This document shows, piece after piece, positions 8,139-23,774 of a DNA stretch of 64,000 bases. Each line of letters begins with the position of its first letter. Within the stretch, counting starts at the first letter, position 1. This stretch comes from Rhodococcus sp. W8901. Its GTDB lineage: Bacteria; Actinomycetota; Actinomycetes; Mycobacteriales; Mycobacteriaceae. Position numbers and translations under genes: made by a program. The stretch spans positions 434,001-498,000 of the forward strand of contig NZ_CP054690.1 in NCBI RefSeq assembly GCF_013348805.1, given 5' to 3'. The notes under the pieces were generated by a model that saw only the letters and a list, made by a program, of their open reading frames with translations, made no database searches and had not been told where the DNA came from.

Positions 8139-9767
8139 CTACAGCAGTGGCGGGACCGTTGCTGCGATCGGAACCTCCAGAACGGTGGGGCCGGAGCGTG
8201 CGAGCGCGGCCTTCACCGCGATCTGCACCTCGTCCACGGTCTCCGCTCGTTCGCCTGCGCATCCGTATCCCTCTCCGAGGGAGACGAAGTCGAGGGACGG
8301 GATGTCGAGTCCCGGCACTCCTGGCGTCTCCTCCAGCTTGGCGAACGCCTTGAGGATGGCGTACTCCTCGTTCCGAGGAACCACGTAGAGGATCGGTAGT
8401 TCGTGGGCGGCGGCGGTCCACAACGCCTGGATGGCGTACTGGAACGATCCGTCGCCTATCATCACCACCACCGGGCGATTGCGGCCTGAATCACGTTCCG
8501 CGAGACAGATACCCACACTGGCCGGCAGATTCCAGCCGAGGCTGCCGCTCGCGGCGGTGTAGAACGAGTCGGGCTTCTCGATGGGCCACGCGGTGTGCAA
8601 CTCCGCGATGTTGGACGGCGACTCCTCCATCAGGACGGTGCCGTCGGGCACCACGGACCGGATCGCCTCGAACACCTCGAGCGCGGTCAGTGTCCCGCCC
8701 GCCTCGCCCGCCTCGGCGACAAGCGGCGCCGGATGCGGGGCCATGCGGTGCGGATTCACGGCGACGGGGCCACTCGGGGCCCGTTCCTCGACCCGCTCGA
8801 GCAAACCCTCGAGGGCCAGGACCGCATCGCACAGCAGACTGTCGCCGACCGGGGCCTTCCCTGCCTCGGCGGGGTCGTCGGTGACGTGCAGGAGTGACAT
8901 GCCCTCCGGTAGATACTCTCCCGGAACGTACGGGTAGTAGCGGAACACCGGTGCCCCGATGACGATTCCGATGTCGTGGCCCGCCAGTCGTTCCGACAGG
9001 GGGCCGATGGCGAACGGCAGCCCGCCCCTGTACTTGGGGTGGTTCTCGGGGAACGGCGGGCGCTCCGAGGACGGTGCCGCCCACACGGGTGCACCGAGCT
9101 TCTCCGCCAGTGCCACCGCCTGTGCCCAGCCGTCCCCGCGCGCGATCGAGGAGCCGTAGATGAGCACCGGGTTCTTCGCGTCGGACAACCGGCGGGCGAA
9201 CTCCTCGATTCGGTCGGGGTCCGGTCCGATCCGCGTCGTCACCGAGCGAAGCACCGGGGTGCTCGCCGCGGGTCGGTCCCAGTCGTCCAGCGGGATCGAG
9301 AGGAAGACCGGACCGGCCGGCGGCTGCATCGCCATCGCGTACGCACGCATGAACGCCGCGGGCACGTCCTCGGCGCGCACCGGTTGGTAGCTCCACTTGG
9401 CCCAGGGCTTCGTCAGCATTTCGGGCTCGACGTTGGTCAGCCACGGCTCCATCAGGAGCATTTCTCGCGTCTGGTTTCCGGCGGTCACGATGAGCGGGGT
9501 GTGATTCATCGCCGCAGTCATGATGTTGCTCATCGCGTTGGAAATGCCCGCCGATGTGTGCACGTTGACCAGCGCGGGGGAGCGGGTGGCCTGAGCGTAG
9601 CCGTCGGCTATGGCGACTGCTGAAGCCTCCTGCAGCGCCAGGATGTATCTGAAGTCGCTGGGCAGATCCTTCAGGAATGTCTCCTCGGTCGAACCTGGAT
9701 TGCCGAATACCGTGGTAATTCCGAGTTTGCGCAGAAGATCGAACGTGACGTCGCGAATCGTACTCAT
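8139..9767 (-). CDS. mdlC: Benzoylformate decarboxylase
   Basis: 542 aa TPP enzyme. Ser26 (GNPGSTEETF), Glu47 (LQEASAVAIADGYA) and His70 (NVHTSAGISNAM) stand at the numbering of the Pseudomonas putida enzyme, and a C-terminal GDGS...N cofactor motif is present. It would decarboxylate phenylglyoxylate, or a related aryl 2-oxoacid, to the aldehyde. At the place of the second catalytic His (His281 in P. putida, RYHQY) this protein has Tyr (VFRYYPY, about 278). A GGAGGA ribosome site precedes ATG 9767. The gene is monocistronic; no mandelate racemase or dehydrogenase lies in the window. A 3'-end remnant of a second copy is at 2984. Confidence 0.85.
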   Translation of the reverse strand: MSTIRDVTFDLLRKLGITTVFGNPGSTEETFLKDLPSDFRYILALQEASAVAIADGYAQATRSPALVNVHTSAGISNAMSNIMTAAMNHTPLIVTAGNQTREMLLMEPWLTNVEPEMLTKPWAKWSYQPVRAEDVPAAFMRAYAMAMQPPAGPVFLSIPLDDWDRPAASTPVLRSVTTRIGPDPDRIEEFARRLSDAKNPVLIYGSSIARGDGWAQAVALAEKLGAPVWAAPSSERPPFPENHPKYRGGLPFAIGPLSERLAGHDIGIVIGAPVFRYYPYVPGEYLPEGMSLLHVTDDPAEAGKAPVGDSLLCDAVLALEGLLERVEERAPSGPVAVNPHRMAPHPAPLVAEAGEAGGTLTALEVFEAIRSVVPDGTVLMEESPSNIAELHTAWPIEKPDSFYTAASGSLGWNLPASVGICLAERDSGRNRPVVVMIGDGSFQYAIQALWTAAAHELPILYVVPRNEEYAILKAFAKLEETPGVPGLDIPSLDFVSLGEGYGCAGERAETVDEVQIAVKAALARSGPTVLEVPIAATVPPLL

Positions 9768-10082: not shown

Positions 10083-10684
10083 ATGAAGAAGTGGTGGCTC
10101 ATCGGTGGCGCGGTCGTGGTGGTGCTCGCAGGTGTTCCGGCGGGCCCCTGGATCTACGGTGAGTTCATCGCCGAGGACGACGCCCCGGCCGCGAGCGTGT
10201 CCACCGAGGGTGCACAGGCGGCGTCGGTTTCGGCGCGCGGGTCACTGTCGTCGGCGCCACCGACCAGGTGGCCGGGACCGCCGACGTCTCCGGTGAGAAG
10301 CTTTCCGGCGCCCAGGTGGTGGTCCAGGTGGCCGCCATCGCCACCGACAACTCGCGTCGCGACGGACAGTTCCGCGGCAACGTCATGGCCGCCGACACGT
10401 TCCCGACCGCGACGTTCACCCTCACGACGCCGGTCGATCCGGCCTCGCTACCCACCGACGGAACCGCCACCACCGTGAAGGCGGACGGGAGGCTGACCCT
10501 CGAGGACCAGACCCGGCCGGTGACCGTCGACGTGAAGGTCCTGCACGCCGGCGACAAACTGGTTGCGTCCGGCAGCGTCCCGGTCACGTGGTCCGACTAC
10601 GGAATCACGCCGCCGTCACTGGGATTCGTGACCATCGACGACGCCGGCACGGTCGACTTCCTGGTGAGCATGGACCGCGCCTGA
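10083..10684 (+). pseudogene. YceI-family protein, frame disrupted
   Basis: The 5' part encodes MKKWWLIGGAVVVVLAG, a signal-anchor typical of actinobacterial YceI proteins, continuing to an Ala/Ser-rich linker near 10235. The YceI lipocalin-like domain continues in a different frame from about 10229 (ARVTVVGATDQVAGTADVSG through IATDNSRRDGQFRGNVM to the end at 10684). About 20 residues expected at the start of the domain (the GTW...AGYRVDEVL stretch) are missing, so an out-of-frame deletion of roughly 60 bases explains the break. It could also be a sequence error. YceI proteins bind isoprenoid-like lipids outside the membrane. Confidence 0.7.
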
Positions 10685-11617
10685 CGATGCGACTGGGCGT
10701 CGGCGCCGATCCGACATCGTCCACGGCAGCAGGCCGCCGAGCGAGAGGATGAAGCCGACGCCGAGCCACTGAACCGGGTCGAGGCGTTCGCCGAGAACAA
10801 GGGCCGCGCTGACGATGCCGAAGATCGGTTCGAGAAGACCGATCATGCTCATCGCCACCGATCCCAGACGCCGCATCGCGTAGAACGCGCAACCGATTCC
10901 GACCGGATTGAGCAGTAGCCCCTGCACGACAGCGACGTGCCATACACCCTGTGGCACGGCGAAACTCTGGCTCGTCGCCACAGCGACGATTCCGGTTGTG
11001 ATCGTCGCTCCGACGGTGACGAGCAGTGCCGCGTTGACAACTCCGACCGATCGTCCCCATTCTTCGCCCAGGACCAGATACACCGCGTATCCGGAGGCGC
11101 TGAGCAATGCCGCGCCGACACCGATCACCGTGATCGAGGACGACGCTGCACCGCCACCGGCGACGAGGCCGATCCCGCAGAGCATCGGCACACACAGCGC
11201 CACCGTCCACACGTTGACGCGTTGTCGGCGGGCCAGCCACACCAGCAGCAGCACGAACAACGGGTAGATGTGGACCAGCGCCAGCGCCACCTGGGCGCCG
11301 GTGGCTTGCACCGCCGCGAAGTAGGCCAGGATCTGGACTCCGAAGAGTGGACCGCACAGGAAGAGCAGCGCCGCTGCCGGTCGCCGGCTGATGCCCCGAA
11401 GGCGGCCGGTTCCGGCAGCGATCAACAGCAGCACCACGGAACCGCACACTCCCCGTAGGGTGACGAGGACGGACGGCGAGACTCCGTCGTGGTACGCGAG
11501 GACCGCGACCACGGGAGTCAGACCGTACGCCGCGGCGGACGCGAGCCCGGCGGCCCAGGCGCCTGTCCCTAGCGAACGCGATCCGGCGTTCACGGCGGCG
11601 CCTGGGCCTCGGCTCAT
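10616..11617 (-). CDS. EamA/DMT-family transporter
   Basis: 333 aa with about ten hydrophobic helices in two EamA repeats, drug/metabolite transporter superfamily. The ATG at 11617 overlaps the stop of the acyl-CoA dehydrogenase gene as ATGA, favouring this start over longer upstream frames and indicating translational coupling. The last 23 codons overlap the end of the convergent YceI frame by 69 bp, so the C-terminal tail (about 30 charged residues) may be a readthrough extension. As last gene of the catabolic operon it may export an intermediate or amino acid; substrate unknown. Confidence 0.8.
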   Translation of the reverse strand: MSRGPGAAVNAGSRSLGTGAWAAGLASAAAYGLTPVVAVLAYHDGVSPSVLVTLRGVCGSVVLLLIAAGTGRLRGISRRPAAALLFLCGPLFGVQILAYFAAVQATGAQVALALVHIYPLFVLLLVWLARRQRVNVWTVALCVPMLCGIGLVAGGGAASSSITVIGVGAALLSASGYAVYLVLGEEWGRSVGVVNAALLVTVGATITTGIVAVATSQSFAVPQGVWHVAVVQGLLLNPVGIGCAFYAMRRLGSVAMSMIGLLEPIFGIVSAALVLGERLDPVQWLGVGFILSLGGLLPWTMSDRRRRPVASSGAVHAHQEVDRAGVVDGHESQ

Positions 11618-12774
11618 CAGAGCTTCCGGGAAATGATGAGCCGCATGATGTCGGAGGTGCCTTCCTCGATCTCCTCGAGCTTGACATCCCGCATCCACTG
11701 CTCGACCGGGTACTCGCGCGAGTAGCCCCAGCCGCCGAGGGTCTGGACGGCGGCGTGGGTCACGAACATTGCGGTCTCGGACGCGGTCAGCTTGGCCATC
11801 GCTGCCAGCCCGGTGGTGTTCACGCCCGCGTCGATCGAGCGCGCGGCGTGATGGACCATGAGCCGTGACGCCTCGATCCGGGTTGCCATGTCCGCCAGTC
11901 GGAATGCGACGGCCTGGTGCTCAATGATCGGCTTGCCGAACTGCTTGCGGGTGCGGGCGTACTCGAGCGCGTACTCGTAGGCGGCGCGGGCAGCTCCCAC
12001 GGCGGCCGCACCGAGGACGATTCGTGAGATGTCGAAGGTCTCCATGAGACCGTAGAAGCCCTGGCCCTCGTCGCCGAGCCGGTTCTCCTCGGGGACGAAC
12101 ACATCGTCGAAGAACAGCTCGCGGCAGACGATCGCACGCTGCCCCATCTTCTTCATCGGTTCACCCCATGTGAAGCCGGGCGTGTCCTTGGTGAGCAGGA
12201 ATGCGGTGACGCCCTTGGACCGTTCGTTGCGATCGGTCTTGGCGAACACCACGTACTGGTCGGCAGCGCCCGCATTGGAGATCCACGCCTTCTGGCCGTT
12301 GATCCGGTACCCGCCGTCCACGCGGGCGGCGGTGGTGATGATCGACGCGGCGTCCGAGCCCGAGCCGGGCTCGGTGGTGGCCAGCGCCGTCATCAGCGGA
12401 TTGGTGCCGGTGAGCGGCCGCAGCCACTTCTCCTTCTGCTCGGCGGTGCCGAGTGCCATCAGGGGGTCGGAGAAGAAGCCGTTGGAGCACACCAGGTTTC
12501 CGATGCCGGGGTCGCCCCAGCAGAGCTCCTCCTGCACCAGGCACTGCGTGAACACGTCGGTCATGCCGCCGCCACCGAACTCCTCGGCGATCATGAAGTC
12601 GGTGATGCCGACCTGGGCGGCCTTGGCGAAGATGTCGACGGGCGTGACCACGTCGGCCTCGTCGACCTCGCGGCCGCGCGGGCGGATCTCCTTCTCGGCG
12701 AAATCACGGCAGAGCTTGACGGTCTCGCGCTGCTCGACGGTGAGCGGCCACGGATCGAACTGGGTGCTGGTCAT
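11617..12774 (-). CDS. Acyl-CoA dehydrogenase
   Basis: 385 aa, full length for the family. Visible are the FAD/substrate loops (ALATTEPGSGSDA near 125, KAWISNAG near 155), the quinone-like GWGYSREYPVEQWMRD region near 350 and the C-terminal IEEGTSDIMR with the usual catalytic Glu. It introduces a 2,3 double bond into a short- or branched-chain acyl-CoA and passes electrons to ETF. AGAGG lies at the expected distance before ATG 12774. It is 71 bp behind the aldehyde dehydrogenase and overlaps the DMT gene, so it should act on the acyl-CoA made by the upstream enzymes. Confidence 0.9.
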   Translation of the reverse strand: MTSTQFDPWPLTVEQRETVKLCRDFAEKEIRPRGREVDEADVVTPVDIFAKAAQVGITDFMIAEEFGGGGMTDVFTQCLVQEELCWGDPGIGNLVCSNGFFSDPLMALGTAEQKEKWLRPLTGTNPLMTALATTEPGSGSDAASIITTAARVDGGYRINGQKAWISNAGAADQYVVFAKTDRNERSKGVTAFLLTKDTPGFTWGEPMKKMGQRAIVCRELFFDDVFVPEENRLGDEGQGFYGLMETFDISRIVLGAAAVGAARAAYEYALEYARTRKQFGKPIIEHQAVAFRLADMATRIEASRLMVHHAARSIDAGVNTTGLAAMAKLTASETAMFVTHAAVQTLGGWGYSREYPVEQWMRDVKLEEIEEGTSDIMRLIISRKL

Positions 12775-12845
12775 GGGGAGCCTCTTTCGGCGTTGGTGAA
12801 GGTGTGTGTTGCTGAGGGGGAATCAGGGGAGTCGGCGGTCCATCG

Positions 12846-14261
12846 TCAGAGTTGGACAGCCGTCAGTTCGGTGTATTCGTCGATGCCGACGCGGCCCAAC
12901 TCTCGACCGAGGCCGGAGTTCTTCCAACCGCCGAAGGGGGCCAGCGGATTGAAATCGGCACCGTTGACGTCGACCTGACCGGTGTCCATGCGACCGGCCA
13001 CCGCCAGCGCGCGATCGCGGTCCGCCGACCAGACTGCGCCGGCAAGTCCGTACTCGCTGTCGTTGGCCGTTTCGATCGCGTCGTCGTCGCCGTCGTGGGG
13101 AAGGACCACGAGCACCGGGCCGAAGATCTCCTCCCGGGCAATCGGGTCCGCCCGGTCGACGTCGGCCAGGACCGTGGGGCGAAGGTAGTGTCCGCGGTCC
13201 GAAATCGTCTGAGTGCCACCGGCAGCTAATCGAGCGCCACGGGCGAGTGCGCGCTCGACCGAGTCCGCAATCGCGGCCCGCTGCTGACCGGAGACCACCG
13301 GCCCCAGTTGGGTGTTGCGATCGAGCGGGTCGCCCACGGTCATCGCCTCGGAATGGGCCGCCGCCATCTCGACGGCCTCGGCGTACCGCTGCCGCGGAAC
13401 CAACAGCCGGGTCCAGGCGCTGCACGTCTGCCCGCTGTTGAGCATCGCAGCTTCCACCGAGCCGACGACCGCACTCGACAGGTCGGCGTCATCGAGGACC
13501 ACGCTGGCCGACTTGCCTCCCAGTTCCAGGCACGCACGCTTGAGTTGCTCACCCGCCACCCGCCCCACCTGGCGGCCCACCGTCGTCGAACCGGTGAACG
13601 AGACCACGTCCACGCCGGGATGCTCGACGATGGCGGCACCGACGACCGATCCGCGCCCGGGAACGAGATTGACGACACCCGAAGGCATTCCGGCCTCGAG
13701 TAGAGCGTCGCAGAACAGGTACGTCGAGAGCGGGGTGAGCTCGGCAGGCTTGACGACCGTGGTGCACCCGGCGGCCAGCGCCGCGCCGACCTTCGCCGCC
13801 AGTTGGTACAGAGGGTAGTTCCAGGGCGTGATGCAGCCGACCACCCCGGCCGGGCGCCGTAGGATGGTCGAGTTGCCGATCGTGTCGTGTGCCGGCATCC
13901 GTCGGGCGATGTCGGCGAACGATGCGATGATCTCGATCGCCAGGTCGACGTGCGAGGCCTCGGCGACGGTCACCGGGGCGCCCACCTCCGCGACCGTGGC
14001 GGCCACGAGTCGATCGCGCCCGGAGACCAACTGAGCATGGAGGGCGTCCAACAGGTCGGCGCGGGTGCCGGTATCGGTTCGGCCCCAGTCCTTCCCCGCG
14101 TTCCGTGCGGACCGCACCGCCGCATCGACATCGGCGATCGATGCTGTCGCGGCGCTGCCGACGACCTCCTCCGTCGCCGGGTTGTACACGTCGGAGACGG
14201 TCGGGCAGCGGCGCCACTCGTTGTCGATCAGGACCGCGTCACGCATCCACGATGTCGTCAC
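12846..14261 (-). CDS. NAD(P)-dependent aldehyde dehydrogenase
   Basis: 471 aa ALDH. Conserved parts include [18 protein letters not shown] with the catalytic Asn, [20 protein letters not shown], the Glu motif [12 protein letters not shown] and the nucleophile region [13 protein letters not shown] (Cys near residue 283). It oxidises an aldehyde to the acid; in this operon the natural substrate is the product of the adjacent TPP decarboxylase. The start overlaps the stop of that gene by 4 bases (ATGA). Aromatic or aminoalkyl aldehydes are both plausible. Confidence 0.9.
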
Positions 14262-15850
14262 TGCTCCACCTCTTCCTCGCGCACATGGATCAGGGTCGGA
14301 CGGTCCGCAGTGAGGGCGGCCGCGACCGCGGGACCAACTTCCTCCGAGGATCCGACAGCTACCCCGTAGCAGCCGAGAGCGCGAGCCAGCGCGGGGAAGT
14401 CGGGGGTGCCGAGGTCGACGGCGTGGACCCGGTCGTCGCGGTCGACCATCTCGTTGCGGATCTCCCCATAGCCGCCGTTGTCGACGATCACCACGGGGAT
14501 CGGCAGCCGGGCCTCGGCCGCCGCGGCGAGCTCGGCGATCGTGAACATCACCCCGCCGTCACCCAGCATCGCAACCACCTGCCGCTCCGGTGCACCGACT
14601 TTCGCTCCGATCGCCGCGGGCAGGCCGTAGCCGAGGGTGCCGAGCCCGGTGGGGTAGAGGAAGGACCGCGGCCGGTGCAGCGGAAGGTTCGACAGCGCTC
14701 CGTAGTAACAGGCCATTGCACTGTCGGCGGCCAGCACGGCGGTGTCGTCGAGCACCGCATCGAGCGACCTACACAGCCGCACGTAGCGAGCCCCCTCGTC
14801 GCGCGCATCCGCCTGCAGTCGCTCGCGCCACAGTTGTGCTCTCGCGGCACCGTCCCGCGGAGCTCCCGTGTACGCGGCGGTCAACGCAGCGAGGGATTTC
14901 GCGGCGTCGCCGACGATGGCAACGGTGGGCCGCGCATTGGTCGAGACCGAGGTGGGGTCGACATCGATCCGGATCAGCGTGGTGTCGGCGATAGGCCCCC
15001 ACCACCAGTCCGAGGGAGCGAGCTCGGTGCCCACCGCAATCACCAGGTCGCTGTCGGCGACCAGTTTCGCGACCGACGGGTGCTGCAGTCCCGCACCGAG
15101 GGCGAGCGGATGCGATTCCTCCAGTGTGCCTTTTCCGTTCGCGGTCGTGATCACCGGTGCGCCCAGCAGTTCGGCTAGCGCACGAACCTCGGAGGCGGCC
15201 CCTGCTGCACCGCCACCGACGATCAACAGTGGCTGCTCGGATCGGCCCAGCAATGCCTGAGCCTCGTCCAGGAGCGATGGTGCCGGTGTGATGATGGAGG
15301 GGCTCACCGGCGCGACGGGAATCACGGGGGCGCTTTCGTCGAGCAGATCGAGAGGAATCTCGAGGTATGCGGGACGCGGACGTCCGGTTGCCATGGCGGC
15401 GAAGCACTGCGCAACGGCGAGAGGGATTTCCGCGACGCTCGTGACGCGTTGTGCGTGACCGACGACGGAGTCCATCGCCCGAAACTGGTCCCGGACCTCG
15501 TGCAGGTAGCCGTTGCCGTTGCTCGGGTGACCGAGCGGCAGGCCGGGCGCGACGAACAGGACCGGCACCGAATCCGAGTATGCTTGCGCCGCAGCAGCTG
15601 CCGCATTCAGGATGGCGGGACCGGTTGTCGTGATACAGACCCCGGGGCGACCGCTGACGCGGGCGTACCCGTCGGCACCGTATCCCGCGCCCTGCTCGTG
15701 ACGCGGTGAGACGTGTTCGATGCCGGACTCGGCGAGAGCGGCGTAGATCGACAGATTGTGCGTGCCCGGAATCCCGAACACCACGTCGACGCCGTGTCGA
15801 GCCAGGGCGTCGACGAGCGCCTGCCCGCCGGTGCGAACTGTGCTCTGCAT
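14258..15850 (-). CDS. TPP-dependent 2-oxoacid decarboxylase
   Basis: About 530 aa, three TPP-enzyme domains: N-terminal FGIPGTHNLSIY and catalytic-Glu segment PRHEQGAGYGADGYARVSG, a middle domain with LLIVGGGAAG, and a C-terminal LGDGGVMFTIAEL...VDNGGYGEI cofactor motif. ATG 15850 is chosen over GTG 15859 because it directly follows the SDR stop (1-base gap) and has GAAGGG 7 bases upstream. The PRHEQGAG pattern recalls the AruI (5-guanidino-2-oxopentanoate decarboxylase) group more than acetolactate synthase; no small ALS subunit is present. It probably converts the keto acid from the amino-acid dehydrogenase to an aldehyde. Confidence 0.75.
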   Translation of the reverse strand: MQSTVRTGGQALVDALARHGVDVVFGIPGTHNLSIYAALAESGIEHVSPRHEQGAGYGADGYARVSGRPGVCITTTGPAILNAAAAAAQAYSDSVPVLFVAPGLPLGHPSNGNGYLHEVRDQFRAMDSVVGHAQRVTSVAEIPLAVAQCFAAMATGRPRPAYLEIPLDLLDESAPVIPVAPVSPSIITPAPSLLDEAQALLGRSEQPLLIVGGGAAGAASEVRALAELLGAPVITTANGKGTLEESHPLALGAGLQHPSVAKLVADSDLVIAVGTELAPSDWWWGPIADTTLIRIDVDPTSVSTNARPTVAIVGDAAKSLAALTAAYTGAPRDGAARAQLWRERLQADARDEGARYVRLCRSLDAVLDDTAVLAADSAMACYYGALSNLPLHRPRSFLYPTGLGTLGYGLPAAIGAKVGAPERQVVAMLGDGGVMFTIAELAAAAEARLPIPVVIVDNGGYGEIRNEMVDRDDRVHAVDLGTPDFPALARALGCYGVAVGSSEEVGPAVAAALTADRPTLIHVREEEVEQ

Positions 15851-15851
15851 G

Positions 15852-16658
15852 TCACGCACCCTTCGTCGGATCGGTGTAGATGGCCTTGCCCAGCCACTGG
15901 CCGCCGTCGACGACGAGGACGTCGCCCGTCACGTACGCGGCCCGCTCGGAGAGCAGGTAGGCGGCGGACTCGGCCACCTCGTCGGGCGTGGTGAAACGCC
16001 CGGCGGGGACGCTCGAGAGCACCTGACTGCGCGCCTCCTCCGTGGGCCACAGCGCGGCCCCGGCGCCGGCGGTCTCGGTCGGACCCGGGGCGATGCAGTT
16101 GAGGCGAACGCCTCGCGCAGCCCACTCGACCGCGAGCGTGCGCGTCATCGCGACGACGCCGGCCTTGGCTGCGGCACTGTGGACGGTGCCGGGGTGGCCG
16201 TGCCAGGCGTATGTGGCGATCACGCTGAGGATCGACCCGGAGCCGGCGGCGAGCATGTGGCGGGAGGCGGCCCGGGTGCAGTAGAAGGTTCCGTTGAGCA
16301 CGATGTCGATGACGGCCTTCCAGCCGTTCGGAGACAGGTTCTCGCCCGGCACCACGAAATTGCCCGCGGCGTTGTTGACCAGCGCGTCCAGCCGTCCGGT
16401 CCGTTCCACAACCGAGTCGATCGCCGCGTCGACGGCGGCGGCGTCGCGCACGTCGCAAGGCAGTGCGATGCCCTTGCCGCCGGCCTGCTCGGCGAGGGCG
16501 ACGGTCTCGTTGAGGGCGTCTTCGCGGCGTCCCATCACGGCGACGGTGCCGCCGGCGGCCGCCCAGCGCACCGCGACGGCCCGGCCGATCCCGGATCCGC
16601 CGCCGGTGACGACCGCCACGCGGTCGGCGAACTCGGCTCTGATGTCAGGTGCAGTCAT
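15852..16658 (-). CDS. 2,4-dienoyl-CoA reductase-like SDR
   Basis: 268 aa Rossmann SDR: cofactor motif TGGGSGIGRA near 20, NNAAGNF near 94, C-terminal VVDGGQWLG. The catalytic YxxxK is absent; the motif reads VHSAAAKAGVVAMTRTLAVEW, with Lys kept but no Tyr, the signature of peroxisomal-type 2,4-dienoyl-CoA / enoyl-CoA reductases. It probably reduces an unsaturated acyl-CoA with NADPH rather than oxidising an alcohol. It lies 51 bp behind the acyl-CoA synthetase gene and 1 base before the TPP enzyme start, so it shares the operon. Confidence 0.8.
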   Translation of the reverse strand: MTAPDIRAEFADRVAVVTGGGSGIGRAVAVRWAAAGGTVAVMGRREDALNETVALAEQAGGKGIALPCDVRDAAAVDAAIDSVVERTGRLDALVNNAAGNFVVPGENLSPNGWKAVIDIVLNGTFYCTRAASRHMLAAGSGSILSVIATYAWHGHPGTVHSAAAKAGVVAMTRTLAVEWAARGVRLNCIAPGPTETAGAGAALWPTEEARSQVLSSVPAGRFTTPDEVAESAAYLLSERAAYVTGDVLVVDGGQWLGKAIYTDPTKGA

Positions 16659-16709
16659 GAATCGTTCCTTGGATACGGGGGGATACGGGATGGGTCGGTC
16701 AGTGATGGG

Positions 16710-18758
16710 TCAGTACTGCTGCTCGATGACGAGCGCGTCGACGGCGAGGACCCCGTCGGGGCCCACCCGAAGCGGGTTGATCTCGATTTCGGCGATGCCC
16801 GGGTGCGCGGCGGCGAGTTGGGACACCGCGGCCACTGCGGAGGCGAGGGCCGCGACGTCGACCGCCGGCCGTCCGCGCCAGCCCTGCAGGAGCGGGAAGC
16901 AGGTGAGGCGCTCGAGCATCTGCCGGGCCGTGCCGGTGTCGACAGGGGCCGACTCGACGGCGACGTCCCGGTACACCTCCGCCTCGGTACCGCCGGCGCC
17001 GACGACGACCACCGCGCCCAGGTCGGGGTCGCGCCGGGCACCGAGCAGGATCTCCACCGTGTGTGGGCGGGTGTCGAGTTCCTCGACGACGTAGTCGCCG
17101 TCACCCAGGGCGGCGTGCATGGCATCGAACGCGGCGGCCAGTGCGGCGGCGTCGGGCAGGTTGACCCGGACACCGCCGACCTCGCTCTTGTGCTCGAGCC
17201 AGGCGGCCTTGAGGACGTACGGTGGTGTGAGCCGCGCGGTTGCGACCGCGAGGTCGTCGCGCCCGCGCACCGGTACGCTCCCGGGAAATCGGATTCCGGT
17301 GTCGCCCAGAAGTTTCTGTGCTCCCAGATAGCCCGCATCGAGGATGTCGGTGCGTTGTGTCGGGTGGCGCTGCTCGCGTCCGGCCTCGGCCAGTCGGACA
17401 CCGTGCGCGAGCGCGCGGACCGTGGCGTCGATCGCCGGGTAGGTCGGGACCGACCGGGCGGCCATCTCCTCGGTGGCGGCGTTGCCGTCGACCATGGTGT
17501 GCACCAGCAGCGGCTTGCCGGACACCGAGGCCGCCGTGCCCAGGGCGCGTACGATCTCGAGCTCACGGTCGGCGAGCGACGGGGTGTCCGCGCCGTAGGT
17601 GCCGAAGTACCCGGTGAGCACGACGGCGTCCACCTCGTCGGACGCGAGCAGCAGCGAGACGACGTCGGAGTAGGACGCCAGGTCGCGCTCACCCGCCCCG
17701 GCGAGGTCGACCGGGTTGCTGCACGCCGCTCCGGACGGGAGTTGCCTCGCGAGAGCCGATTCCAGGTCGGGCGAGAACTCGGGAACCTGCAGCCCGGCGT
17801 GCGCCGTGACGTCCGCCGCGATGCCGGTCTGGCCTCCGCTGTCGCCGACGATGGCCACCCGGCCGCCTCCCGGCAGCGCGCTCGAGAGGAGTAACCGAGC
17901 GAGGTCGACGAGTTCGGTGGGGGTGGCGACCCGGACGGCGCCCGCGACCCGCAACGCGGCGTCGACGACGTCGGTGCTCGACGTGAGCGAACCGGTGTGA
18001 GAGCGGGCCAGGCGGGTGCTGGCCTCACTCCCGCCGACGGTCAGTACGACGGTGTGCTTGCCGGCCCGCCGGAGTCGGCCGATCGCGTCGACGATCTCCA
18101 AGCCGCCCGCGAACGACTCGAGATAGAGGGCGACCACGCGGGTGGACTCGTCGGTGGCGAGCGCGTCGAGCAGCTCCGCGGCCCGCACGTCGGTCTGGTT
18201 GCCGATCGAGACGAACCGGGAGATCCCGAGCCCGGCGCGGGCGGCGAGCAGCGCGATCTCGGAGCCCACCTGGCCGCTCTGTGAGACCACCGCGATCGGC
18301 CCGGGGGTGAACTGTCCCCAGGCCAGGCACAGTTCGGCCGCGCTGTCGTAGAGACCGAGGCTGTTCATGCCGACCAACCTGGCCCCGCCGGCGTGGATAC
18401 GGGCGGCGATGTCGGGCTCGTCCGGAACGCCGGCCGTGATGCCCAGGAAGCCGCGGACGCCGAGCGCGAGGCCCTCGTCGACCACCGCTCCGATGTGTGC
18501 CGCGGGCACGCACAGGGCCACGAGTTCCGGTACATCCGGCAGCTCACTGAGACTGCCGTAGCTTGCTTCACCCAGGATCTCCGCCCTCGTCCGGTTGACG
18601 AGGTGCACCTGACGGCGATGGCGCCCGGTCAGGGCGCCCCGAGTGAGCCAGTAGCCCCACTTGGCGGGATCGGCGGTGGACCCGACGACGGCCACCGACG
18701 CGGGGTCGCTGAAGACCCTCAGATCGGTGCCGGTCGTCGGCGACGGTGTGGATGCCAT
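16710..18758 (-). CDS. ADP-forming acyl-CoA synthetase (fused alpha/beta)
   Basis: 682 aa. Residues about 15-140 form the CoA-binding domain (SVAVVGSTADPAKWGY), 150-450 the succinyl-CoA-ligase-like domains with VSQSGQVG and the phospho-His motif ARSHTGSL near 255, and 470-682 an ATP-grasp domain (PYVLKAAWLEHKSEVGGV, EIEINPLRV). It reversibly couples acyl-CoA and ADP+Pi to acid, CoA and ATP; here it likely activates the acid made by the aldehyde dehydrogenase. It lies 43 bp downstream of the amino-acid dehydrogenase. Confidence 0.85.
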   Translation of the reverse strand: MASTPSPTTGTDLRVFSDPASVAVVGSTADPAKWGYWLTRGALTGRHRRQVHLVNRTRAEILGEASYGSLSELPDVPELVALCVPAAHIGAVVDEGLALGVRGFLGITAGVPDEPDIAARIHAGGARLVGMNSLGLYDSAAELCLAWGQFTPGPIAVVSQSGQVGSEIALLAARAGLGISRFVSIGNQTDVRAAELLDALATDESTRVVALYLESFAGGLEIVDAIGRLRRAGKHTVVLTVGGSEASTRLARSHTGSLTSSTDVVDAALRVAGAVRVATPTELVDLARLLLSSALPGGGRVAIVGDSGGQTGIAADVTAHAGLQVPEFSPDLESALARQLPSGAACSNPVDLAGAGERDLASYSDVVSLLLASDEVDAVVLTGYFGTYGADTPSLADRELEIVRALGTAASVSGKPLLVHTMVDGNAATEEMAARSVPTYPAIDATVRALAHGVRLAEAGREQRHPTQRTDILDAGYLGAQKLLGDTGIRFPGSVPVRGRDDLAVATARLTPPYVLKAAWLEHKSEVGGVRVNLPDAAALAAAFDAMHAALGDGDYVVEELDTRPHTVEILLGARRDPDLGAVVVVGAGGTEAEVYRDVAVESAPVDTGTARQMLERLTCFPLLQGWRGRPAVDVAALASAVAAVSQLAAAHPGIAEIEINPLRVGPDGVLAVDALVIEQQY

Positions 18759-18801
18759 GGCAACAGCTCCTGGGCGAGATCGCGTGTGTACGAGTGGGGG
18801 A

Positions 18802-20025
18802 TCAGAAGGTGGGGAACTGACGGGTCAGTTCGGTCAACTTGTCCGAAGCCAGCGCGAATGCGGCGGCCCGAGCACTGATTCCGTGCCGGTCGGCATAGTC
18901 GAACATCTGGTCGCTCAGTGCGCGCATCCGATTGCTGATCTTCTGGAAGGACTGCTCGGCGCTGCCGTCGATGTCTCCGAAGAACACCCACCACCACCAG
19001 GCGTTGGTCGCCGAGTTGGCCACGAAGTCGGGCGAGACCACGACGCCCCTGGCGACGAGGGACTCCTCGGCGCTCGGCGTGATCGGCATGTTGGCGGCTT
19101 CGACGACGAGGACGGCACGCACCTCGGCCTGGTTGGAATCGTCGATGCAGTACGACGTCGCGGCCGGGATCAGGACCTCTGCTTCGATCGAAAGCCACTG
19201 GGAGGAGCTGAGTTCCGTGTCACCGTCCGCCAGCTGCGTGCGGTCGACCCCACCCGTCGCATCACGCGTCAGGAGGAGCTTCTCGACGTCGAGGCCGTTC
19301 GGGTTCGCGACCACTCCGTGCACGTCGGCAATACCGACGATGCGCACGCCGGCCTTCGCGAGGTAGCGCGCCGTGGCGCCGCCCATGGATCCGAAGCCCT
19401 GCACCACGGCCCGCGATGCCGCGGGATCGAGGCCCTGACGCGCCATGGCGGCGAGAGCAGCCTCGGCGACGCCGTAGCCGCCGACCAGTTCGTCGAGCGA
19501 GACCCCGTCGACCACCGTGGTGAACGCCGTCTTCATGCGGGCGGCCGCCGCGGCGGCGTCGTCGATGACGCGATGCGCGGCCTGGACGGAGCTCTCGACT
19601 CCGATCTCGGCGAGTGCTGCGTCGACGGCGTCCTGCCGAATCCCGAAGTCCTCGCCCATGTTCCAGCGCTGCTCGATGAGCGGAGCCATGGCCTCGAGGT
19701 AGCGGCGCAGCACGCTGTCGGCGTCGGGGTGGTACGGGTCGAAGTCGATGCCGCCCTTGGCGCCGCCGAGCGGGACGTAGTGGGCGCCCTCCTCGAAGTG
19801 GATCGCTTCCTTGAGGGTCATTCCGCGTGCGAGCCCGCGGACCTCGTTGAGGGTGCAGCCGGCGCGCATTCGCAGGCCGCCGCTGGAGATGCCACGGACG
19901 AGCCGGTCGATGACCAGGTATCCCGTTGCCTCGCTTTCGGTATCGCGCCAGATTGCCTCGAAGAACGGGTCGTCGGTGCGGTTGGCATCGGTCGAGCCGA
20001 TGGCGTTCGGAAGGGTCAAGGACAT
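18802..20025 (-). CDS. Glu/Leu/Phe/Val-type amino-acid dehydrogenase
   Basis: 407 aa. The substrate domain shows ISSGGLRMRAGC and VPLGGAKGGIDFDP (Lys90), then MGEDFGI; the NAD domain begins near residue 216 with VQGFGSMGGATARYL and includes VEAANMPITPSAEE. It oxidatively deaminates an L-amino acid to a 2-oxoacid with NAD(P)+. The residues do not tell me which amino acid; the Cys57 and Ala89 variations differ from classic glutamate enzymes. It is the first gene of the minus-strand run 10616-20025, and a TetR-type operator lies 25-44 bp upstream. Confidence 0.85.
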   Translation of the reverse strand: MSLTLPNAIGSTDANRTDDPFFEAIWRDTESEATGYLVIDRLVRGISSGGLRMRAGCTLNEVRGLARGMTLKEAIHFEEGAHYVPLGGAKGGIDFDPYHPDADSVLRRYLEAMAPLIEQRWNMGEDFGIRQDAVDAALAEIGVESSVQAAHRVIDDAAAAAARMKTAFTTVVDGVSLDELVGGYGVAEAALAAMARQGLDPAASRAVVQGFGSMGGATARYLAKAGVRIVGIADVHGVVANPNGLDVEKLLLTRDATGGVDRTQLADGDTELSSSQWLSIEAEVLIPAATSYCIDDSNQAEVRAVLVVEAANMPITPSAEESLVARGVVVSPDFVANSATNAWWWWVFFGDIDGSAEQSFQKISNRMRALSDQMFDYADRHGISARAAAFALASDKLTELTRQFPTF

Positions 20026-20049
20026 GGAGCGTTCCTGTTCTCTCAGCTA

Positions 20050-20069
20050 CTAACTGATTGCTCAGTCAG
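20050..20069. promoter_or_regulatory. TetR-type operator, site 1
   Basis: CTAACTGATTGCTCAGTCAG, containing ACTGA-N4-TCAGT, 25 bp upstream of the amino-acid dehydrogenase start. It agrees at 17 of 20 positions with site 2 at 23755-23774 upstream of the M20 amidohydrolase. The TetR gene lies between the two. Inference: TetR at 20162 represses both units until an intermediate binds. Confidence 0.7.
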
Positions 20070-20161
20070 TATGCGAGAGTGGGGTCGGTCACGTCAAGGG
20101 TTCATTTCAGGTCAGTCCCGGTGGCCCACCGAACGCGAAGGCCTGGCGGTGGCCGTGCGGA

Positions 20162-20764
20162 TCAGATCCCCAGCTCGGAGCGGACGGCCTGATCCATCCA
20201 CTCGGCCGCATCCTTCTTCGAGACTCCGCCGTCGAGCGCGACGAGCTGGACCGCGAGCCCGTCGAGTAGGGCGGTCAGCCGCCAGGCCGCACCCTGCGGA
20301 TCCTCGGTGCGGAAGTCGCCGGCCGCCACCCCGGCGCGGATCAGGTCGGCCACGACTTCACGCCAGCGGAGATCGAGCCGGTGCGTGACATCGCGCAGCG
20401 CAGGCTGGCGCAGACACGCGGACCAGGTCTCGATCCATAGCCGCCAGCCGACGGCCCGGCCGGTGGGGCCGTACTCGTACAGGACGGCGCGCAGCCGGGT
20501 CTCGATGTCGCCGTCGGTGTTTGCCAGGACGTTGTCGAGGTTGTCGAGGTCGTTCTCGGCGGCGAGTTCGAATGCGCTGACGACCACGTTCTCGAGCGTC
20601 TTGAAGTGGTAGAAGATCAGCGCGGTGCTGATTCCCAGTTCCTTGGCGATGTCCGCAGCGCGCAGCCGATCGATCCCGGACTCGGTGATCAAGTCGAGTG
20701 TGGTGGACAGGATCTCGTTACGTCGATCCTGGGTTTCTTTCCGCTGCTTCGTCTGCTTCGACAC
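20162..20764 (-). CDS. TetR-family regulator
   Basis: About 200 aa from GTG 20764; TTG 20773 is also possible, and the longer frame runs into the terminator hairpin and is unlikely. The HTH is in residues about 12-60 (RNEILSTTLDLITESG, RAADIAKELGISTALIFYHF). The rest is the helical ligand domain with Trp-rich WRLWIETWSACLRQPAL, suggesting a hydrophobic or aromatic ligand. It lies between the dehydrogenase and symporter units on the same strand; the repeated operator at 20050 and 23755 is its likely target. Confidence 0.85.
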   Translation of the reverse strand: MSKQTKQRKETQDRRNEILSTTLDLITESGIDRLRAADIAKELGISTALIFYHFKTLENVVVSAFELAAENDLDNLDNVLANTDGDIETRLRAVLYEYGPTGRAVGWRLWIETWSACLRQPALRDVTHRLDLRWREVVADLIRAGVAAGDFRTEDPQGAAWRLTALLDGLAVQLVALDGGVSKKDAAEWMDQAVRSELGI

Positions 20765-20830
20765 ACTGGTCAAGCTACTGCACCGGGCCGGGCGGGTGGA
20801 CGGCTGTCCGTGCAGGCGTGCGACGACACG

Positions 20831-20887
20831 CGGGAACGGGGCGTGCCGGGCAGCTCGTCCAGAGCTGCCCGGCACGCCCCGTTCCCG
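20831..20887 (-). terminator. 26-bp perfect hairpin after the symporter gene
   Basis: Two perfectly complementary 26-base arms (20831-20856, 20862-20887) with a 5-base loop GTCCA. It starts 13 bases after the symporter stop and precedes the TetR gene, all minus strand, so it should end the M20-symporter transcript and insulate the regulator. It has no T-run. The length and perfect pairing are well above ordinary terminators here. Confidence 0.7.
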
Positions 20888-20899
20888 AGGATTGGATGA

Positions 20900-22357
20900 T
20901 CAGACCCTCGCGGCCATGGAGGTGTCGTCCGGGAACGTCTCCGGATGGGCTCGCGCCGAGCGTGACAGCCGGAGCACGGTTTCCACCAGCGTGATCACGA
21001 GGATGTTCACGACCAGACCGCTGATCCCGGTGTTGATATCCGGACCGTGGATCGGTGAGAAGGTGAACAGGATCACTACGAAGACGCCCGCACACAGCCC
21101 CGCGATGACCGATGCCTTGTCCAGCTTGCGCTTGAGCAGGAGCACCGCAGCGATCGCGGGGACCACCTGGGTCGAGCCGCTGAAGGTCAGTAGCAGCATG
21201 TTGCCCAGGAGGTTCGGCATCGACAGCGCCAGGACGAGGGCGGCGAGTCCGAACACCACCACGACGATCTGGTTGACGGCGAACTTCTTCTTCTCATCCT
21301 TGATCATGAAGACGTTGTTGACCGCCAGGGGCGCGATCGCGATCAGAAGTGCAGCGGACGGAACCATCGCCGTGGCTGCCGCGGCGGTCAACACGACTCC
21401 CATCGCCCACGGCGGCAACGCTTCCGATGCCATCTGCAGCATCGCGGAGTCGCCGTCCTGATCGATGCCGAACGCGACGATCGCCGTGTACCCAAGCAGC
21501 ATCGGGATGCTGGCCAGCGCACTGTAGATCGGCAGGTAGATGAGATTCCGGCGAACCGCCCTCTCGCTGTTGCTGGCCATGACGGCCGGCCAGTTGTGCG
21601 GCAGCGCGTAGAACATGACGCCGATCATGCTGATCGCCATGCTCGTGATGAACCACCAGGTGCCGTATGTGCCGTTCTGGACGTAGAGCAGTTGCGGCAT
21701 CTCGGCGGCGATGGTGCTCATTCCGAAGTCGATCCCGCCGTTGAAGTGCATCGGGATCGCGACGCTGATCACGAGCATCACGATGATCATCAGCACGTCC
21801 TTGAAGTAGGACGTGCGGGCGACACCGTGCAGGCCGGACCACAATACGAAGGCGATGACGAGAACGAACGCGACTATGCTGCTGAGCTTTCCGTCGAAAG
21901 CCCCGCCGGTGGCGGCCTTGACGATCAGGCCGAGCCCCGTGATCTGCAACTGGAGGTACGGGAGCAGGAACACGATCCCGAACACCGCGGACAGCAGTCC
22001 GAGAGCGGGGCTGTCATAGTTGCCGCGGAGGAAATCGGATTGGGTGACGTAGCCGGACGCCTTCGCCTGCCGCCACAGCTTCGGTGCGATCCAGTACATG
22101 ACGATGTAGGCCAGCGGGATGTACGGAATGCAGTAGAACGCCGAGGCTCCGAGCGAGACGACCAGCCCGACCGTTCCGAGGAAGGTGAAGGTCGTGAAGG
22201 TTTCGCCCGCCTGGAGGATCCAGGTCGTCATGACGCCGAAGCGGCGACCCGCGACCGCCCACTCGCCCATGTCCTTCACGGGCTGACGTCGCCCCCAGAA
22301 TCCGATCGCCGCGATCAGGACGATGCCGAGAATTCCGATCGTCAACGTGACGTTCAT
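20900..22357 (-). CDS. Sodium:solute symporter (SSS family)
   Basis: 485 aa with about 13 hydrophobic helices. The TM1 region NVTLTIGILGIVLIAAIGFWGRR is shortened in this family; WAVAGRRFGVMTTWILQAGETFT fits the SSS signature near residue 33, and PSAALLIAIAPLAVNN the later core. It would import a solute with Na+ (pantothenate/proline/monocarboxylate group). Its start overlaps the 69-aa membrane protein by 4 bases (ATGA), and the M20 amidohydrolase is first in the operon, so the solute is probably the conjugate that enzyme hydrolyses. Confidence 0.9.
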   Translation of the reverse strand: MNVTLTIGILGIVLIAAIGFWGRRQPVKDMGEWAVAGRRFGVMTTWILQAGETFTTFTFLGTVGLVVSLGASAFYCIPYIPLAYIVMYWIAPKLWRQAKASGYVTQSDFLRGNYDSPALGLLSAVFGIVFLLPYLQLQITGLGLIVKAATGGAFDGKLSSIVAFVLVIAFVLWSGLHGVARTSYFKDVLMIIVMLVISVAIPMHFNGGIDFGMSTIAAEMPQLLYVQNGTYGTWWFITSMAISMIGVMFYALPHNWPAVMASNSERAVRRNLIYLPIYSALASIPMLLGYTAIVAFGIDQDGDSAMLQMASEALPPWAMGVVLTAAAATAMVPSAALLIAIAPLAVNNVFMIKDEKKKFAVNQIVVVVFGLAALVLALSMPNLLGNMLLLTFSGSTQVVPAIAAVLLLKRKLDKASVIAGLCAGVFVVILFTFSPIHGPDINTGISGLVVNILVITLVETVLRLSRSARAHPETFPDDTSMAARV

Positions 22358-22563
22358 GCCTCACTCCCGTCCTCGTCGAGGTCTTTCCGGGTGTATTCGA
22401 AGTAGGCGAGGACTCCGGAGACGCCGACACTGCTGACGAGCGTGACCCAGAGGAACAGGGATGGGGATCCAAACCACACGTGGGGCCCGTTGATCTGGGG
22501 GAGCCACGTGACCAGGAATATGAGGATGAACGGAATGGATCCGACTATCCAGTACTTTCGCAT
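22354..22563 (-). CDS. Small membrane partner of SSS symporter
   Basis: 69 aa with two hydrophobic segments (YWIVGSIPFILIFLVTWL and LFLWVTLVSSVGVSGVLAYF) and a charged C-terminus. Size, topology and position immediately before an SSS symporter with a 4-base overlap match DUF3311-like small subunits that accompany these symporters. It may stabilise or regulate the transporter. It is 24 bp after the M20 gene. Confidence 0.75.
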   Translation of the reverse strand: MRKYWIVGSIPFILIFLVTWLPQINGPHVWFGSPSLFLWVTLVSSVGVSGVLAYFEYTRKDLDEDGSEA

Positions 22564-22587
22564 GAGAACCGCCTTGGTGGGGTGAGG

Positions 22588-23742
22588 TCAGCGTCCCGAA
22601 ATGAACTGCTCGCGCAGCGTCGGGTCTGTGGCGATGTCGACGATGGTCCAGGCCATCGCCGTGGCCCCGTCCACGAGCGCACGGTCGGCCGACGGGCCGG
22701 CGCAGTGCGCTGCGAACTCGGGCTGATGGTTCACGGATGCTCCGCAGTCGAGAGCGACATTCGGGTGGATCGCGGGGATCACCCGCGACACGTTGCCCAT
22801 ATCGGTCGAGCCGAGCGGCGAATGTGCTTCTTCTACCGGGGCGAATGACCGGCCGAGTCGCACCGCATTTCGCTCGTACAGTCCGGCGAGTGCGGTGTCG
22901 TTGCGGAACTCGGAGTAGTCGGGGGAGGTGTGCGAGGTGGTCAGTTCGCACCCTGTGGCGAGTGCGGCGGCCTCGAAGCAGCGTTGTACGCGTTCTTCGA
23001 GTGCCTTCAGCGCATCGAGATCGGATGCTCGAATGTAGTAGTGCGCACCGGCTTTCGCAGGAATGATGTTCGGAGCTTCACCACCGTTCGTCACGATGCC
23101 GTGGATCTGGTCTCCGGGGCGGAACTGCTGCCGGAGAAGGCCTACGGCGACCTGGGCGAGCGTGACGGCGTCGCCGGCGTTCACCCCCTCGTACGGTGCC
23201 GCCGAGGCGTGCGCGTTCCGTCCAGTGAAGTCAACGAGGACGTCGCCGATGGCGAGTGCGTTCGTGTACACCTGGTCGACCGTGGACGGGTGAATCATCA
23301 TCGCGGCGTGGGTGCCGTCGAACACCCCGGCCTCGAGCATGCGCACCTTGCCGCCCCCGTTCTCCTCGGCGGGGGTTCCGAACACCTTGACCGTGATTCC
23401 GAGATCATCGGCGAGCGGGGCCAGCCCGGACGCGGCGGCGACCGCCGCCCCCGCGATGACGTTGTGCCCGCACGCATGACCGATACCGGGGAGCGCGTCG
23501 TACTCGGCGCAGATGCCGATGACCAGGGGGCCACTGCCGGCGGTGGCCACGAGCGCAGTGGGCATTCCGGCTACATCGGGGTTCACCGTGAACCCTGCTT
23601 CCGACAGCGCGTCGCCGACCCAGTGGGAGGCGCGGACTTCCTCGAAGCCGATCTCCGGATGGGCGTGGATGCGATGACTGAGTTCGACGGCGGACTGCTC
23701 GGCTCGCCCGATGTGGTGCCGGACGGCTTCCTTCAGGTCCAC
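22588..23742 (-). CDS. M20-family amidohydrolase
   Basis: 384 aa M20D-type enzyme (IAA-amino acid / hippurate / aminobenzoyl-glutamate hydrolase group). Metal-ligand and core motifs: RIHAHPEIGFEEVRAS near 25, AEYDALPGIGHACGHNV near 83, TPAEENGGGKVRMLEAG near 122, IHPSTVDQ, HAHASAAPYEG near 172 and a late GSTDMGNVS. It hydrolyses an amide bond between an acyl group and an amino acid or aromatic amine in the cytoplasm. It is the first gene of an operon with the symporter; a TetR operator sits 13-32 bp before the start. Confidence 0.9.
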   Translation of the reverse strand: MDLKEAVRHHIGRAEQSAVELSHRIHAHPEIGFEEVRASHWVGDALSEAGFTVNPDVAGMPTALVATAGSGPLVIGICAEYDALPGIGHACGHNVIAGAAVAAASGLAPLADDLGITVKVFGTPAEENGGGKVRMLEAGVFDGTHAAMMIHPSTVDQVYTNALAIGDVLVDFTGRNAHASAAPYEGVNAGDAVTLAQVAVGLLRQQFRPGDQIHGIVTNGGEAPNIIPAKAGAHYYIRASDLDALKALEERVQRCFEAAALATGCELTTSHTSPDYSEFRNDTALAGLYERNAVRLGRSFAPVEEAHSPLGSTDMGNVSRVIPAIHPNVALDCGASVNHQPEFAAHCAGPSADRALVDGATAMAWTIVDIATDPTLREQFISGR

Positions 23743-23754
23743 GATGTCTCCTTA

Positions 23755-23774
23755 CTGACTAATTGATCAGTCAG
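23755..23774. promoter_or_regulatory. TetR-type operator, site 2
   Basis: CTGACTAATTGATCAGTCAG, an inverted repeat with 6-base arms CTGACT / AGTCAG, 13 bp before the M20 start. It is the better palindrome of the pair and differs from site 1 (20050-20069) at three positions. Its position overlaps where the promoter or 5' leader should be, consistent with repression. Confidence 0.7.

Follow-up and report, generated by a model that had tools for sequence, protein, structure and literature searches.

Operon and predicted regulon

A run of genes on the minus strand of a 64,000-nucleotide stretch of Rhodococcus sp. W8901 (contig NZ_CP054690.1, positions 434,001 to 498,000; hereafter the window) probably encodes the degradation of an unusual amino acid to a coenzyme A (CoA) ester via an aldehyde, a likely Ehrlich-type route to acyl-CoA. 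Judged from a predicted operator common to both, the entry genes and the catabolic operon very probably form one regulon under a TetR-family regulator, and the entry genes are very probably exchangeable, an M20 amidohydrolase and a symporter being found here and APC permeases elsewhere. That this TetR-controlled regulon serves an alpha-amino acid with a positively charged side chain, of the arginine/methylarginine or lysine type, is given an even chance; within that half the arginine type and the lysine type are each unlikely when taken singly, and other cationic substrates make up the rest.

Every gene named by the earlier note was found as an open frame with a family match (Table 1); the EamA transporter gene was absent from its text. 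The genes for the glutamate dehydrogenase-like enzyme (GDH), NDP-forming acyl-CoA ligase (ACS), short-chain dehydrogenase/reductase (SDR), thiamine pyrophosphate (TPP)-dependent decarboxylase, aldehyde dehydrogenase (ALDH), acyl-CoA dehydrogenase (ACAD) and EamA transporter form a tight unit, with intergenic gaps of at most 71 bases or overlaps. Upstream of it lie the M20, symporter and TetR genes, followed by 230, 135 and 136 bases, respectively. The catalytic residues expected for each family were found in all alignment rows having a letter there. No intrinsic terminators were found, where shuffled sequence would yield 4.5. The gene set implies the chain of deamination, non-oxidative TPP decarboxylation, aldehyde oxidation, CoA activation and dehydrogenation that the earlier note had read from it.

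In the proposed route, the symporter would import a conjugate (dipeptide or N-acyl derivative) from which the M20 enzyme would free the amino acid, both steps being confined to the window, with APC permeases or ABC transporters serving for import in relatives. GDH would deaminate the amino acid to a 2-oxoacid, the AruI-type TPP enzyme would decarboxylate this to an aldehyde and ALDH would yield an acid one carbon shorter, which ACS would convert to the acyl-CoA and ACAD to the 2-enoyl-CoA; the SDR would work on the latter or a dienoyl-CoA formed from it, and EamA may transport the substrate or a by-product. In this direction the ligase spends ATP, so the ATP conservation once proposed for it falls away.

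Two near-palindromes, CTGACTGATCAATTAGTCAG before M20 and CTGACTGAGCAATCAGTTAG before GDH, each follow an identical promoter-like pair, TTGACG-N18-CATACT. With as many as 3 mismatches allowed, the operator pattern matched the window at these two places only (a mean of 0.01 expected by chance), in one case on both strands, and the whole 5.7-Mb genome at these two sites only, a reversed control pattern giving 1 match. Promoter-like sites were by number no more than chance (2 against 1.2), and the two count only because they share both hexamers and operator. The survey in relatives covered 30 loci chosen by the analyst: at up to 4 mismatches at least one site was present in 20 and none in 10, at up to 3 mismatches a site stood directly before GDH in 10, and in 7 a site separated TetR from a divergently oriented amino-acid permease gene. 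Sites were also seen before the permease in Nocardia L073, before an amine oxidase/permease pair in Gordonia L016 and L018, and before EamA in Streptomyces L024 and L025. In six more whole-genome scans each genome's perfect match preceded GDH, and two-mismatch sites elsewhere were at control level.

Because the operator is shared and recurs before GDH and amino-acid permeases, import or hydrolysis and catabolism probably belong to one regulon; M20 and the symporter, though not conserved beside the cassette, are counted among its members for this reason. The predicted operator thus argues, as the earlier note had supposed, that the two units belong together. The TetR protein encoded between them is the presumed owner of the operator, and the natural inducer releasing it would presumably be the amino acid or its oxoacid. 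A further site, read by eye, lies in Gordonia L152 (5838-5857), 30 bases before an APC-like permease and away from the cassette; this permease is a possible extra regulon member.

Table 1. Genes and predicted operators of the regulon (window coordinates)
Feature	Position	Strand	Remarks
Predicted TetR-type operator CTGACTGATCAATTAGTCAG	23755..23774	-	before M20, just downstream of the promoter-like pair (23804-23775)
M20 amidohydrolase	22588..23742	-	TIGR01891 214 bits, cut-off 154; nearest solved relatives HmrA, Xaa-Arg dipeptidase (PM20D2)
Sodium:solute-symporter-like permease	20900..22357	-	weak MctP/PutP/PanF similarity
TetR-family regulator, BetI-type C-terminal domain	20162..20764	-	family match
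Predicted TetR-type operator CTGACTGAGCAATCAGTTAG	20050..20069	-	before GDH, downstream of the same promoter-like pair (20097-20068)
GDH-like amino-acid dehydrogenase, glutamate-dehydrogenase fold (Glu/Leu/Phe/Val type)	18802..20025	-	family match
NDP-forming acyl-CoA ligase (ACS)	16710..18758	-	phospho-His kept; nearest solved: 3-hydroxypropionyl (3HP)- and 4-hydroxybutyryl (4HB)-CoA ligases, dimethylsulfoniopropionate (DMSP) lyase DddX
SDR, 2,4-dienoyl-CoA-reductase type	15852..16658	-	Asn/Tyr/Ser/Lys set as in human DECR1
TPP-dependent 2-oxoacid decarboxylase, AruI/PRK07524 clade	14258..15859 (start 15859 or 15850)	-	
Aldehyde dehydrogenase (ALDH)	12846..14261	-	Cys/Glu/Asn kept
Acyl-CoA dehydrogenase (ACAD)	11617..12774	-	Glu371 base, unusual Glu370 directly before
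EamA/DMT transporter	10616 to ~11617 or 11698	-	family match; last gene of the unit

Decarboxylase and dehydrogenase

The TPP enzyme only just met the NCBIfam cut-off of PRK07524 (502.2 against 500; 529 in locus L090), the sole cut-off passed among the families shown. In a tree of 47 rows, a branch with 98/98 support joined the cassette enzymes and annotated AruI-type rows (39 of the 47) and excluded IlvI, Gcl, PoxB and Oxc, and the enzyme, which groups with AruI-type rows, is predicted to be a 2-oxoacid decarboxylase of that type. An acetolactate-synthase or oxalyl-CoA type, which the earlier note had considered, was rejected on the tree, and the family scores agreed with neither. A characterised AruI homologue acts, according to passages of PMC7268258, on guanidino- and amino-oxopentanoate. 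That the TPP enzyme acts as a carboligase or a hydroxyacyl-CoA lyase, in a gene set that is no linear degradation route, is very improbable: acetolactate synthase and 2-hydroxyacyl-CoA lyases are relatives of its family, and a D-2-hydroxyacid-dehydrogenase-like gene occurs in cassette loci L081, L082 and L090, but the tree and family scores just given speak for the AruI type, and the enzyme is found in fixed pairing with an amino-acid dehydrogenase. Outside the operon, a second TPP enzyme (window 8139-9767, minus strand) is a benzoylformate decarboxylase by curated score (624 against 493).

In the dehydrogenase, the residues that we take to be the catalytic Lys/Lys/Asp of glutamate dehydrogenase (K113, K125 and D165, Clostridium symbiosum numbering) were kept in 70/70 rows at each position. 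Those presumed to bind the gamma-carboxylate of glutamate, Lys89 and Ser380, are replaced in the window by Ser48 and Ala342; Lys was found at the first position in 0/70 rows and Ser at the second in 15/70. A glutamate dehydrogenase proper was rejected on the loss of this Lys and Ser. Mycolicibacterium loci L011, L012 and L017 hold a GDH 73–74% identical to that of the window; genes for a flavin amine oxidase and lysine-decarboxylase-like proteins accompany it, and a TPP enzyme is lacking.

Conservation and entry genes

A GDH scan of genome contigs gave 64 loci. The gene comparison took in 77 loci, actinobacterial and other, that each contain one core gene or more, once 19 that were short or duplicates (L001-L010, L074-L080, L088, L089) had been dropped. 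Because part of the loci came from TPP or SDR queries and part are truncated at a contig end, the cassette counts are not unbiased frequencies. GDH and TPP genes occurred together in 39/77 loci, with ACS and ACAD in 24, with ACS, SDR and ACAD in 14, and all six core genes, ALDH included, in 6. Among 110 same-strand neighbouring core pairs less than 2 kb apart, 78 overlapped or lay within 30 bases, 62 of them overlapping, which speaks against a chance grouping. L090 carries the whole set as a single run together with EamA, TetR, a 2-hydroxyacid-dehydrogenase-like gene and an ABC transporter of four genes. EamA-family genes are present also in cassette loci L073, L081, L082, L090, L053 and L024; in Nocardia L073 a group II intron match (19363-19436) directly follows the EamA gene. 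A mycothiol formaldehyde dehydrogenase gene adjoins the Streptomyces cassette, which may be its ordinary place, and was not used as evidence.

The set is rare, an SDR of this closeness occurring in 7/394 class-level and 3/396 phylum-level genomes (own genome counted in both). The closest copies were those of Nocardia L073 (TPP 81%, ACAD 94%, SDR 94%) in the same gene order, while in the two other same-genus genomes with a cassette the TPP enzyme is only 72–74% identical to that of the window and the order differs. Since the Nocardia copies are nearer than those of the same genus, which differ in order, the cassette was likely acquired by horizontal transfer, judged by sequence comparison; an IS1380-family transposase near the operon (window 6420-7814, minus strand; 356 against a cut-off of 180) is in line with a transferred segment. 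In a narrow literature search no description of this cassette was recognised, and no absence from print is claimed.

M20 and the symporter are lineage-specific entry genes in whose place relatives carry APC amino-acid permeases. The top NCBIfam model for the symporter was MctP, at 216 bits far under the cut-off of 625, and no Pfam family was matched at E 1e-5; among the compared loci it recurred only as an 88-aa remnant in Nocardia L073 (64% identical, at 8846-9112, the place of the window's symporter) and as a 24% match in L093. No close M20 homologue was found in the gene-comparison loci, the only matches being in L095 (31% over 179 aa, E 2e-10) and L056 (E 9e-4). A second, more widespread M20 copy lies in the same genome (G000 C1:4197626-4198756; 55% identity), and relatives as close as this copy occur in 26/61 genomes compared (own genome included). 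As a fixed feature the N-acyl pathway of the earlier note was rejected, the two genes not being conserved beside the cassette, and an N-acylated substrate is therefore a possibility alongside a dipeptide or an unacylated amino acid.

Nature of the substrate

Arylacetyl-CoA esters lack a saturated alpha-beta bond on which the ACAD could act, so Phe, Tyr, Trp and His are ruled out for this step and the aromatic substrates once suggested are excluded by established chemistry. In the ACAD alignment the catalytic Glu371 and the Glu370 directly before it were each found in 27/28 rows, the remaining row being a gap. Among the 21 ACADs of the genome, position 370 is Y in 9, G in 3, A in 3, F in 2, L in 2, W in 1 and E in 1, the cassette enzyme; the 5 PDB relatives listed have Tyr directly before the catalytic Glu, where the cassette rows have Glu370 instead. 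By analogy with medium-chain acyl-CoA dehydrogenase, Glu370 presumably lies in the acyl pocket. CaiA-like carnitine chemistry was rejected, CaiA and a second ACAD of L083 being without Glu370.

A neutral (branched-chain or linear) amino acid, for which an Ehrlich route would end in isovaleryl-, isobutyryl-, 2-methylbutyryl- or methylthiopropionyl-CoA, is not a likely substrate: the invariant Glu370 and the AruI clade of the TPP enzyme speak against it, the SDR would be left without a role, and two E1 subunits belonging to 2-oxoacid dehydrogenase complexes are encoded in the genome, so that an oxidative route may already exist. The branched-chain substrates of the earlier note find no special support.

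A cationic substrate fits best, given the AruI kinship, a Glu370 unique among the genome's ACADs and a dimethylargininase beside a relative's GDH. It is also favoured by the lost glutamate-binding Lys and Ser of the GDH, by the nearest relatives of M20 (Xaa-Arg dipeptidase and HmrA) and by the lysine-decarboxylase-like genes and cationic-looking permease beside the Mycolicibacterium GDH. The dimethylargininase (375 bits, cut-off 340) is encoded in L081/L177, 67 bases before GDH and after an ABC transporter whose binding protein scored best as Lys/Arg/Orn type, under cut-off; in L081 it occupies 18651-19448 and the first open reading frame is an MFS gene. The pairing occurred in 1/106 loci compared; in L098, a second and looser case, an AruI-type TPP gene is followed by one annotated as dimethylarginine dimethylaminohydrolase, under NCBIfam cut-offs.

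Several points weigh against a cationic substrate. The same model found no dimethylargininase in the window genome, agmatinase or guanidinobutyrase was not found in the window's locus, to which that search was confined, and arginase-family genes occurred in 5/106 loci, none with the ACAD-SDR cassette. Many supporting neighbours occur in just 1–4 loci, and the Lys/Arg/Orn binding protein, a PotD-like protein, ALDH as aminobutyraldehyde dehydrogenase and the symporter all fell under curated cut-offs. The relatives' permease scored best as an S-methylmethionine permease (483 against a cut-off of 716), a riboswitch search found no element that would name the substrate, and a dienoyl-type SDR has no obvious job in the case of arginine. 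The AlphaFold model of the ACAD is uncertain exactly at Glu370 (pLDDT below 50 at 364-368 and 370-373), and in the ligase the cation-binding Trp391 of DddX is replaced by Ala in 25/25 rows and Phe435 by I/L/V/A/T. A 'WWWW' stretch of the GDH occurs in relatives without the cassette too; its reading as an onium cage was dropped because it is also found in relatives without the TPP enzyme.

The SDR makes most sense if the acyl chain has five carbons and carries a leaving group at C5, which points to a lysine-type precursor. Its DECR-type Asn/Tyr/Ser/Lys set, which we take to be catalytic as in DECR1, was complete in 14/14 rows at each position (aligned with 1w6u and 3imf), and the PRK07677 score was 299.5, under the cut-off of 318. 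By this scheme the operon would use CoA chemistry to strip the charged head group from an amino acid of the lysine type (lysine itself, homoarginine or N-epsilon-methylated lysine). Shortening by GDH and the TPP enzyme would turn the substrate into 5-amino- (or onium-/guanidino-) valerate, the ligase would form the CoA ester, the acidic-pocket ACAD would desaturate it, and the head group would leave as trimethylamine, ammonia or guanidine to give 2,4-pentadienoyl-CoA, which the DECR-type SDR would reduce to 3-pentenoyl-CoA for beta-oxidation. Taken in full, this scheme, the one in which all six conserved enzymes have a job, is speculative and unlikely.

A rather improbable alternative is S-methylmethionine catabolism, in which GDH and the TPP enzyme would yield DMSP-aldehyde, ALDH would form DMSP and the ligase DMSP-CoA, perhaps with release of acryloyl-CoA and dimethyl sulfide. 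In Streptomyces L047, L048, L049 and L052, TPP and GDH genes follow a ketosynthase gene and one for a SET protein whose only strong PDB match (46.9 bits, against 21.7 for the next) was BurB, the S-methyltransferase that acts on methionine in DMSP synthesis, and L049 also has genes read by eye as metK and metF. DddX was the third PDB match of the ligase, and its Glu432 aligns with a Glu kept in 25/25 rows, the alignment being weak there; the permease score given above points the same way. This substrate, however, would leave the ACAD and the dienoyl-type SDR unexplained, DddX Trp391 and Phe435 are not kept, and the Streptomyces biosynthetic clusters form a separate branch of the TPP tree; moreover, known bacterial DMSP synthesis uses a pyridoxal phosphate (PLP) decarboxylase and an aminotransferase, as set out in parts of PMC12542666 and PMC7496086. 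These four clusters possibly encode a sulfonium-starter polyketide or fatty-acid pathway. FabG/FabI-like, acyl carrier protein and SARP-like genes were also read by eye in L049.

Relation to known systems

If a cationic substrate is correct, soil actinobacteria own a regulated, portable route that feeds a charged amino acid into central metabolism, with an aldehyde and a charged acyl-CoA as intermediates, and arginine-, methylarginine- or lysine-derived compounds gain an added fate. Substrates would then be named for GDH, ACAD and NDP-forming ligase families that are now only generically annotated, and the operator would offer a direct handle for inducing the regulon and identifying the inducer.

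The earlier note had regarded a full Ehrlich-like catabolic route as the unusual point. Such a bacterial route is already known for arginine (AruI/IlvB1), as passages of PMC7268258 describe, so the route itself is not the surprise. The new part is the dehydrogenase entry and the CoA/ACAD/dienoyl-reductase exit. With the arginine transaminase pathway of Pseudomonas aeruginosa (AruH/AruI/KauB/guanidinobutyrase) and the Sinorhizobium meliloti network (IlvB1), the proposed route would share the conversion of an amino acid to a 2-oxoacid, the AruI-family TPP decarboxylation of this to an aldehyde and the oxidation of the aldehyde to the acid. It differs in that a GDH-fold dehydrogenase takes the place of the transaminase and that the acid would be CoA-activated and dehydrogenated, whereas there it is hydrolysed to gamma-aminobutyrate; no transaminase or guanidinobutyrase of that pathway was found among the operon genes at this locus.

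The GDH-like enzyme forms a family distinct from the Glu, Leu, Phe and Val dehydrogenases, with the glutamate-binding Lys and Ser replaced and 22–30% identity to solved glutamate dehydrogenases among the top matches listed. DddX, an ATP-dependent DMSP lyase, shares with the ligase the fold family, domain order, phospho-His and the Glu aligned with Glu432, but not the sulfonium-binding Trp391 and Phe435. The likeness to the BurB/BurI/BurD/BurE synthesis of DMSP lies in the BurB-like SET protein beside TPP-GDH in the four Streptomyces loci; Bur works with a PLP decarboxylase plus an aminotransferase, and the window has no SET gene. Mitochondrial-type DECR1 and Bacillus PRK07677 have the same Asn/Tyr/Ser/Lys set as the SDR, Ser replacing the usual SDR Tyr, and the SDR is strongly similar to 3imf and 1w6u; unlike them it is encoded in an amino-acid operon. 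Clostridium aminovalericum uses a 5-hydroxyvaleryl-CoA dehydratase route, of which the lysine-type scheme, if true, would be the aerobic counterpart.

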